Assembly: GCA_937944385.1 (NCBI GenBank)
Contig: CALDYQ010000007.1
Span: forward strand, 1-64,000
DNA length: 64,000 bases
From: an uncultured Burkholderiales bacterium
GTDB taxonomy: Bacteria; Pseudomonadota; Gammaproteobacteria; Burkholderiales; Casimicrobiaceae
Direction: 5' to 3'
How positions within the stretch are numbered: the stretch's first letter is position 1; every line of letters starts with the position of its first letter. The notes beneath the pieces were generated by a model that was given only the letters and a program-made list of their open reading frames with translations, did not search any database and had not been told where the DNA came from. A program made the translations under genes and the position numbers. Of the stretch, positions 48,285-52,736 are shown piece by piece.

Positions 48285-49727
48285 TCACAAGGCTTCGGCC
48301 GCGAAGTCTGCCAGACGCGAGCGCTCGCCGCGTTGCAGCGTCACGTGGCCAGAGTGCGCCCAGCCCTTGAACCGGTCGACCACGTAGGTGAGACCCGACG
48401 AGCCCTCGGTCAGGTAGGGGGTGTCGATCTGCGCGATGTTGCCGAGGCAGACCACCTTGGTGCCGGGGCCGGCCCGGGTGATCAGCGTCTTCATCTGCTT
48501 GGGCGTGAGGTTCTGCGCCTCGTCGATGATCAGGAACTTGTTCAGGAAGGTCCGGCCGCGCATGAAATTGAGGCTCTTCACCTTGATCCGCGAGCGGATG
48601 AGGTCGTTGCTTGCGGCGCGGCCCCAGTCGCCGGCATCGCTGGCGCCGCCCATGAGCACGTCCAGGTTGTCCTCGAGCGCGCCCATCCAGGGTGTCATCT
48701 TCTCTTCCTCGGTGCCCGGCAGGAAGCCGATGTCCTCGCCCACGGGCACGGTCACCCGGGTCATGATGATTTCGTTGTAGAGCTTCTGGTCGAGCGTGAG
48801 TTGCAGGCCCGCGGCGAGCGCGAGCAGCGTCTTGCCGGTGCCTGCCTGTCCGAGCAGCGTCACGAAGTCGATGTCCGGGTTCATGAGCAGGTTCAACGCG
48901 AAATTCTGCTCGCGGTTACGCGCGGTGATGCCCCAGACGGCGTTCTTGTGGTGCCCGAAATCCCGTAGCGTGACCAGGGTCGCGCTCTTGCCTTCGATCG
49001 ACACCACGCGAGCGTAGAACGGCGAGTCATGCTCGGTGTAGACGAGCTCGTTGAGGAGGAGCTTCGGTACCAGCGGGCCGGTGATCCGATAGAACGTCGC
49101 GCCGCCTTGCTGCCAGCTTTCCACCCCCTTGCCGTGGCGTTCCCAGAAATCAGCTGGCAACTCGGTTGCGCCCGAGTAGAGAAGCTCGGTGTCCTCGAGC
49201 ACCTTGTCGTTGTAGTAGTCCTCGGCATCGACATCGAGCGCCCGCGCCTTGATGCGCATGTTGATGTCCTTCGAGACGAGCACCACGTGCCGCCTGGGCT
49301 GCTTCTTCTTGAGATGCAGGCAGACCGCAATGATTTCGTTGTCCGCCTTGCCTGCGGCAAACGAGGGAGGTAACTGCACCGAAAGCGGCTCGGTCTGCAG
49401 GAACAGCCGACCGGTGGCGCCACCGCCCGTGGGCCCGGCGAGCGGGATGCCGTCGTGGATGCCATTGGCAAAGTCGCCGACGATCTGGTCGAGGAAGCGT
49501 GACGCCTGGCGCGCGTTTCGGTTGACCTCGAGCGTGCCCTTCTTGTGGTTGTCGAGCTCCTCGAGCGTGCAGATCGGCAGGAAGATGTCGTGTTCCTCGA
49601 ACCGATGCAGCGAGGTCGGATCATGCATGAGCACGTTGGTGTCGAGCACGAAGAGCTTGCTGCTCGAACCGCGCGACTTGGTGGCACGGGGGGCGAGGGC
49701 GACGACCCGGGAGGTTTTGCTGGTCAT
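48285..49727 (-). CDS. PhoH family protein with N-terminal PIN domain
   Basis: KLFVLDTNVLMHDPTSLHRFEEHDIFLPICTLEELDNHKKG ... LLGQAGTGKTLLALAAGL ... FLIIDEAQNLTPKQMKTLITRAGPGTKVVCLGNIAQIDTPYL. Confidence 0.93.
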   Translation of the reverse strand: MTSKTSRVVALAPRATKSRGSSSKLFVLDTNVLMHDPTSLHRFEEHDIFLPICTLEELDNHKKGTLEVNRNARQASRFLDQIVGDFANGIHDGIPLAGPTGGGATGRLFLQTEPLSVQLPPSFAAGKADNEIIAVCLHLKKKQPRRHVVLVSKDINMRIKARALDVDAEDYYNDKVLEDTELLYSGATELPADFWERHGKGVESWQQGGATFYRITGPLVPKLLLNELVYTEHDSPFYARVVSIEGKSATLVTLRDFGHHKNAVWGITARNREQNFALNLLMNPDIDFVTLLGQAGTGKTLLALAAGLQLTLDQKLYNEIIMTRVTVPVGEDIGFLPGTEEEKMTPWMGALEDNLDVLMGGASDAGDWGRAASNDLIRSRIKVKSLNFMRGRTFLNKFLIIDEAQNLTPKQMKTLITRAGPGTKVVCLGNIAQIDTPYLTEGSSGLTYVVDRFKGWAHSGHVTLQRGERSRLADFAAEAL

Positions 49728-49937
49728 GCGGAAAGCGGCACGGGTGCCGCAGGGCGGAGAAGAGGAAGGGCGTGACGCGCACCGAACGACGCGCCGACAA
49801 GGCACCGATGGCAGATGCCGCGAAGACAGATGCCCGAAGAGCAGCCGAGACTCAAGCGCGAGTCCAACGGCGGGGGCGGGAGCGGGTTCCCGACAGAGGA
49901 TGCATGAGACGAAATGTAGCGATTCCGTGGCTAAAAA

Positions 49938-49953
49938 ACACAATATCTTGTGT
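49938..49953. promoter_or_regulatory. Candidate NrdR box ACACAATATCTTGTGT
   Basis: 16-bp palindrome inside perfect 7-bp inverted repeat AACACAA-TATC-TTGTGTT (49937-49954); 15/16 match to recalled NrdR consensus acaCwAtATaTwGwgt. Confidence 0.6.
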
Positions 49954-49976
49954 TGCCGGACGTCGTGCTCGCCCAT

Positions 49977-50172: not shown

Positions 50173-51153
50173 ATGACCGAATTCGAACTGATCGAGCGCC
50201 TGTTCACGCGGCCTTCCCCCGGTGCCTTGGTGGGCAATGGTGATGATGCGGCGGTGATTGCGCCGTCATCGGGTCATGCCTTCGTCGTCACGACCGACAC
50301 GCTGATCGAGGGGCGACACTTTCTCCCCACGCTCGATCCGGAAAAACTCGGGCGACGGGCGGTGGCGGTCAATCTCTCGGATCTGGCCGCAATGGGGGCA
50401 TGGCCGCGTTTCGCGCTGCTCTCGCTCACACTGCCTCAGATCGACGCGCCCTGGGTCACGGCGTTTGCGCGTGGCCTGTTTGACGCACTTGGTGAGCATC
50501 GGGTCGAACTCGTCGGCGGCAACACCACACGCGGTCCACTCGCTGTGGGCTTGACCGCCATGGGCGAGGTGCCGCTGTCGGTGGGGCAGCCGCAGGTGCT
50601 GTTGCGTTCCGGGGCGCAGCCGGGCGACGATGTCTGGGTCAGCGGCCCGCTTGGAGACGCCGGCTGGGCCTGCCTTTGCCTGCTCGGCGAGATCGATGCC
50701 GTGCCGACCGCAGAACAGATCGCTCACTACGAATGCCCTGTGCCACGCGTGGACCTCGGACTTGCGCTTCGGCCGATCGCCACAGCAGCGATTGACGTCT
50801 CCGACGGGCTCGTGAGCGAAGCGCGGCATCTGGCGCGCTCCTCGGGCGTCGCCATCGAGATCGACGCGACGCGCATCCCCACCGGCCTCGGAGCGCTGCT
50901 CTCCGACGAACGTTTCGCCCAGGCGGCGTGGCGAGCGCTACTTGCGACGGGGGACGCGTATGAGCTTCTCTTCACCGCCCCGCCGGGCGCACGTGCGCGG
51001 ATTTCGGAGCTCCTGGCGCAACAGGGACTCGACGGCACGCGCATCGGCCGGGTGCTCGCCGTTGCGGCGGAGGAGGCCGGAATGGTGCGTGTGCTGGATG
51101 CCCGGGGCGAGGATCGGGCAGCAGGGCGCACCGGCTGGGATCACTTCGCATGA
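50173..51153 (+). CDS. thiL: Thiamine-phosphate kinase
   Basis: MTEFELIERLFTRPSPGALVGNGDDAAVIAPSSGHAFVVTTDTLIEGRHFL. Confidence 0.95.
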   Translation: MTEFELIERLFTRPSPGALVGNGDDAAVIAPSSGHAFVVTTDTLIEGRHFLPTLDPEKLGRRAVAVNLSDLAAMGAWPRFALLSLTLPQIDAPWVTAFARGLFDALGEHRVELVGGNTTRGPLAVGLTAMGEVPLSVGQPQVLLRSGAQPGDDVWVSGPLGDAGWACLCLLGEIDAVPTAEQIAHYECPVPRVDLGLALRPIATAAIDVSDGLVSEARHLARSSGVAIEIDATRIPTGLGALLSDERFAQAAWRALLATGDAYELLFTAPPGARARISELLAQQGLDGTRIGRVLAVAAEEAGMVRVLDARGEDRAAGRTGWDHFA

Positions 51154-51708: not shown

Positions 51709-52215
51709 ATGACGGATCGACTTCCCGCAGCGTGGGTCAGTGCGGCTGATCGGCTGGGTGCCGCCTGCGTTTCGCGCGGAGTGATGCTTGCGGGCGCGGA
51801 GAGCTGCACCGGCGGATTGATCGCGGCGACACTTACGGCGGTTGCTGGTTCCTCGGCCTGGTTCGACCGCGTGTTCGTGACCTACAGCAACGCGGCCAAG
51901 GTCGAGCTGCTTGGCGTCGCCCCGGCAACGCTCGATGCCTTCGGAGCGGTGAGCGAGGAGACGGCGCGCGAGATGGCCTTGGGCGCACTCAAGCAGTCCG
52001 GAGCGAACCTCGCCTATGCGGTCACGGGTATCGCCGGGCCGACCGGTGGCACACCGGAGAAGCCCGTCGGGCTCGTCTGCTTTGGTTTTTCTGGTGCGGG
52101 TGGCGTGCAGTCGCTTTCCCGGCGTTTCGACGGCGACCGGGCGGCCGTCCGCGCGCAGAGTCTGCGCCTTGTCATCGAACGCCTTCACGCGCTCGTGGAA
52201 CAATCCGGCGTATGA
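51709..52215 (+). CDS. pncC: CinA C-terminal family protein (nicotinamide-nucleotide amidohydrolase)
   Basis: [57 protein letters not shown]. Confidence 0.93.
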
Positions 52216-52736
52216 AGTGCCCGTTCTGTGGATCGGCCGAAACGCAGGTCATCGATTCGCGCGTGTCGGAATCGGGGGACGCCATTCGCCGGCGTCGCCG
52301 CTGCGAGGGCTGTGACAAGCGCTTCACCACCTTCGAGACGGTGGAGATGCGCATGCCCCAGGTGGTCAAACAGAACGGCACCCGGGTCGACTTCAACACC
52401 GAGAAGATCCGCGCGGGCTTCACGAAGGCGCTGCACAAGCGCTTCGTACCGACCGAGTATGTCGATCAGGCGATCGCGCGGATCGTGGCCAACGTACACG
52501 CGCGCGGCGAGCGCGAGATCGCTTCGCGCGAGATCGGCGAGATGGTGATGGCCGAGCTCTACAAGCTCGACAAGGTCGGCTACATCCGCTTTGCCTCGGT
52601 CTACCGTGCGTTCTCCGACGTGGCCGACTTCAAGAGCATGCTCTCCGAAGTGGAGCGCCCGGCCGCGTCCCGCAAGGGCAAGTCCGCGGCTGCGGTCAAG
52701 TCGTCGACGTGCAAGGGGGGCGCGCGCGGTGTTTAG
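52212..52736 (+). CDS. nrdR: Transcriptional repressor NrdR
   Basis: [56 protein letters not shown] zinc ribbon plus ATP cone. Confidence 0.97.

Follow-up and report, generated by a model that had tools for sequence, protein, structure and literature searches.

NrdR is a bacterial sensor that switches off the production of DNA building blocks. It requires two DNA boxes, usually separated by a 15–16 bp spacer and so placed that their centres are a whole number of helical turns apart, and these boxes overlap the polymerase site (PMC12051234). dATP plus ATP converts the protein into a DNA-binding tetramer that spans both boxes (PMC9110341; PMC12051234). According to the structure from Streptomyces coelicolor, specificity is set by C4 and G13 of each box together with residues D15 and R17 of NrdR (PMC9110341); the position numbers C4 and G13 used here were derived from the numbering of the 57-bp fragment in that paper.

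A preliminary description of the 64,000-nt stretch of DNA analysed here (the window) had pointed to a palindrome resembling a NrdR box between the divergent genes phoH and thiL. In the mechanism that we propose, this palindrome would be one of the two boxes (box 1) in a tandem NrdR operator (49907–49953) lying across the phoH promoter. NrdR loaded with dATP and ATP would bind there, and high dATP would thus lead to the joint repression of nrdA, fimV and phoH. We put the probability of this reading, which relies on sequence comparison, at about 0.8. The features concerned are the following.

48285–49727, minus strand: phoH (480 aa), with a PIN domain and a PhoH ATPase domain (PhoH2 type), the presumed target of the operator
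49907–49922, minus strand: NrdR box 2, TCGCTACATTTCGTCT on the minus strand (AGACGAAATGTAGCGA on the plus strand), degenerate, but with C4/G13 and the core CnAnATnTnG kept
49913–49918, minus strand: TACATT, the probable −10 element of phoH, inside box 2 and assigned by alignment
49923–49937, no strand: spacer of 15 bp between box 1 and box 2, corresponding to 31 bp from centre to centre or approximately three helical turns
49938–49943, minus strand: TTGTGT, a weak −35-like element within the right-hand half of box 1; its distance to TACATT is 19 bp
49938–49953, minus strand: NrdR box 1, promoter-distal relative to phoH, ACACAAGATATTGTGT on the minus strand, the core of an 18-bp palindrome at 49937–49954
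50173–51153, plus strand: thiL, thiamine-phosphate kinase, which among the loci examined is the divergent neighbour of phoH only here and in the congeneric genome G016
52212–52736, plus strand: nrdR (174 aa), encoding a protein with Zn-ribbon, ATP-cone, D15, R17 and an RRRR motif, which is presumed to bind the operator

The palindrome at 49937–49954 reads AACACAATATCTTGTGTT and consists of two perfect 7-bp arms (AACACAA and TTGTGTT) flanking TATC, exactly as first described. Its core ACACAATATCTTGTGT (49938–49953) differs from the NrdR consensus acaCwAtATaTwGwgt at one position and agrees at the other 15 of 16; a shuffled window is expected to contain 0.11 such matches by chance if up to three mismatches are allowed. 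The distances given in the preliminary description also held, with 220 bp from the edge of box 1 to the ATG of thiL (50173) and approximately 210 bp to the start of phoH (49727). When the whole genome (2,536,416 bases in 98 contigs) was searched with ACACWATATMTTGTGT, box 1 was the sole match without mismatches; all remaining matches had three mismatches each, and two of these were the nrdA boxes on contig C48. Because ACACWATATMTTGTGT had been derived from the box 1 site itself, a separate matrix was built exclusively from the 29 distinct nrdA boxes of the family (maximum 24.3 bits). Under this matrix box 1 reached 23.6 bits; the two nrdA boxes of this genome obtained 19.9 and 22.1 bits, and elsewhere in the window no site exceeded 10.8. 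Matrix scoring was applied to the window and to selected loci, and the genome-wide tests were pattern searches.

The initial view that only one box is visible proved wrong. Towards phoH, box 1 is followed after 15 bp by a second, weaker box (49907–49922), and its presence at this spacing led us to reject a single-box reading. While box 1 is a 16-bp palindromic box of the acaCwAtATaTwGtgt type, box 2 is a degenerate one that alone receives 2.6 bits, a score equalled at approximately 0.07% of the window positions. The pair, however, scores 26.2, versus 4.3 for the best other pair at 31 or 32 bp in the window if box 1 is left out. The 15-bp spacer falls within the range described for NrdR (PMC12051234); in this genome, the boxes at nrdA and those at fimV are separated by 16 bp. 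Both boxes at phoH carry the G–C pairs at positions 4 and 13 (PMC9110341), and an intact NrdR with the corresponding DNA-reading residues is encoded in the same genome. The region 49907–49953 thus has the makings of an authentic-looking two-box NrdR operator, a kind of element that is already known.

The position of the phoH promoter can be proposed from the alignment, in which almost every member of the genus, with or without box 1, retains ATCGCTACATT. The −10-like TACATT conserved within box 2 is the probable −10 element of phoH. The weak −35-like TTGTGT that had been noticed to overlap the palindrome on the minus strand is indeed present. Its distance of 19 bp from TACATT is large for a sigma-70 promoter, and scanning by consensus found no strong promoter of this type. 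In sister genera, the TTGTGT of the second box is located approximately 17 bp ahead of a TAGCAT-type −10 element. As the boxes would overlap this putative promoter, repression of phoH is the predicted outcome. Between box 2 and the start codon, phoH has a leader of approximately 180 nt (49730–49900), and the length of this leader ranges from approximately 180 to 260 nt across the genus.

The rarity of such pairs was assessed with a strict tandem pattern consisting of CNANATNTNG, 21 or 22 bases and again CNANATNTNG, with the core CnAnATnTnG. This pattern was written post hoc, when the sites had already been seen, and its six fixed columns are the best-conserved ones of the nrdA-only matrix. In this genome it matches at three places only, which are nrdA (on contig C48, with its own box pair), fimV (contig C10) and the phoH site in the window. 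Across 17 genomes of the genus, 41 places were found (17 at nrdA, 1 at nrdD, 14 at fimV, 5 at phoH and 4 others), and a reversed control pattern gave 2 matches in the genus. The four unexplained matches (G005 C1:216931; G011 C44:61643, inside thiL; G002 C18:56882; G014 C26:3379), most of which lie within open frames, were taken as background. As a positive control, the pattern was followed across the order, where it falls on nrdA, nrdD or nrdJ, plus some unexplained matches, and it can therefore be considered a fair detector of NrdR operators. The single nrdD match in the genus (G013:C6:108349) is a strict pair ahead of the gene for the class III ribonucleotide reductase. Near a chance match of the pattern in another genome (G079:C19, 1783–2681), tandem repeats were seen that translate as PTPVGVF/PHARGGVS and are CRISPR-array-like.

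The gene fimV encodes a polar landmark protein of the FimV/HubP family. Its strict pair in this genome (G000:C10:18291–18332) is situated between leuB and fimV, approximately 130 bp upstream of the latter, and of the 15 genomes of the genus in which fimV was located, 14 have a strict pair there. All 15 fimV loci of the genus, and likewise all 11 loci examined from the genera g2, g3, g4, g5 and g7, have a good box whose partner stands 31 or 32 bp away; in nearly all of these loci no shuffle was equally good. No such pair was detected at fimV in four genomes of other families (G077, G054, G075 and G049). Also outside the family, a strict pair (G070:C21:432075–432115) follows the end of phoH and precedes a gene just downstream of phoH whose product matches FimV_N weakly, at 24.7 bits and thus short of the cut-off of 27.

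Beyond the genus, the signal at fimV is stronger than that at phoH. Three sister genera (g2, g3 and g5) have box pairs at a distance of 31 or 32 bp ahead of phoH, and in nearly all cases few or no shuffles were equally good. These pairs are weaker than those in the genus; the arms CCACAA and TTGTG are kept and the centre is often altered, and G13 is often missing from the upstream box. In g4, g6 and 27 genomes of other families no pair signal was found at phoH, where spacings of 31 or 32 bp did no better than others. Similarly, among 77 named phoH loci that were scored, clear scores (6.8 to 27.3) were obtained in four only, all on contigs matching members of the family, and the loci from outside the family gave no spacing-specific signal.

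The preliminary description had seen the palindrome mainly as heading the gene run that encodes nrdR, so that NrdR bound there would control the divergent thiL-pgpA-pncC-nrdR-ribD-ribE genes and thereby limit its own synthesis. Autoregulation of this kind has some appeal, as nrdR is the fourth gene of a tightly packed run beginning 220 bp from box 1 and in other bacteria NrdR frequently regulates the gene that encodes it (PMC9110341). However, the same pair stands ahead of phoH in four other members of the genus (G002, G007, G010 and G014), with CCACAAGATGTAGTGG or a close variant followed by a box 2 element reading TCGCTACATTTAGTGC, and in none of them was thiL found within 1500 bases upstream of phoH. 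Conversely, thiL adjoins phoH in G016 as it does here, yet that genome lacks box 1 and the pair. The gene order thiL-pgpA-pncC-nrdR-ribD is kept, at different locations, in most members of the genus, but no strict pair was matched ahead of any of these relocated operons, and box 2 and the conserved −10-like element face phoH. Since the pair is retained at phoH without thiL in the 1500 bases upstream and is absent in G016, the operator goes with phoH and not with the thiL-nrdR operon. Autoregulation is thus not supported as the main reading and appears unlikely to us. The alternative that had been offered alongside it, NrdR control of phoH, gained support from the second box at canonical spacing, the agreement with the genome's own nrdA boxes and the conservation at phoH of relatives; all three also favour the reading of the palindrome as a NrdR box in the first place. 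Nine examined members of the genus have no pair even though the −10-like element is kept, and consequently NrdR control of phoH would not be universal. In a PhoH tree, this genome (G000) and G016 form a pair distinct from the clade that holds the four box-bearing relatives, which fits either an older origin of the operator with subsequent losses or two origins.

If the operator belongs to phoH, it might still be read by a protein other than NrdR. A repressor recognizing a similar palindrome (CACAA-N4-6-TTGTG), with a convergent likeness to NrdR boxes, would fit the phoH boxes of g2, g3 and g5, where the arms CCACAA and TTGTG persist but the AT at the centre of NrdR boxes is often missing, as is G13 in the upstream box. 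In this genome and the four box-bearing relatives, however, the boxes fit the nrdA-trained matrix over their full length, the spacing of the phoH pair is that of the nrdA pair, and box 2 at phoH of G017 still reaches 19.6 bits; we regard a different repressor as improbable, even more so than autoregulation. The least credible explanation is a palindrome without regulatory role that arose by chance in an A+T-rich promoter patch. Such words are more easily expected at a G+C content of 38%, versus 66% in the window, and several relatives lack the palindrome. But box 1 is the best site in 2.5 Mb and has a paired box at the right spacing, the same pair occurs at the same gene in four relatives despite diverged surroundings, and the background of the strict pair amounts to approximately four unexplained matches in 17 genomes.

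The same kind of site occurs at both phoH and fimV, which points to a role of NrdR beyond nucleotide synthesis in this bacterial family. We consider it reasonably likely, with less confidence than for the phoH operator itself, that within this betaproteobacterial family NrdR serves as a small regulator with multiple targets and would link dNTP supply to the fimV/hubP cell-pole organizer and to the RNA-acting PIN-PhoH2 protein, each via a conserved two-box operator. One might speculate that the PIN-PhoH2 protein and the polar landmark protein are tied to dNTP supply via the replication or cell-cycle state. A search of the open-access literature retrieved no paper joining NrdR with fimV; three papers name both NrdR and phoH, but judged by titles and abstracts none of them deals with NrdR control of phoH; within the literature searched, phoH thus appears to be new as a NrdR target. 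Because NrdR has been described as specific for ribonucleotide reductase, conserved two-box operators at other genes are the new point here. The operators at phoH and fimV are direct, testable candidate cases in which NrdR would regulate genes other than those of ribonucleotide reductase; if true, they would link a dATP signal to cell-pole organization and RNA handling.

The operator at phoH resembles the tandem NrdR operators of ribonucleotide reductase operons (nrdAB, nrdHIEF, nrdDG and nrdRJ) in its two 16-bp palindromic boxes, the 15-bp spacer, C4/G13, a predicted overlap with the putative promoter and the presence of NrdR in the genome. It differs from them in its weak box 2 and in its target, as the neighbouring genes are phoH and thiL and no ribonucleotide reductase gene is involved. 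The best-known proposed target outside the ribonucleotide reductase genes comes from Pseudomonas aeruginosa, where a NrdR box was found at topA (PMC4409342). That gene, however, has a single box and was reported to be activated, which has been called questionable (PMC12051234) on account of the single box. In contrast, phoH has two boxes at canonical spacing, for which repression is predicted. Finally, the autoregulated nrdRJ operon of S. coelicolor likewise has NrdR boxes near the transcription unit that contains nrdR. Here, however, nrdR occupies the fourth place in a divergent run of biosynthetic genes, no strict pair was matched ahead of the relocated thiL-nrdR operons of relatives, and genome comparison ties the boxes to phoH.
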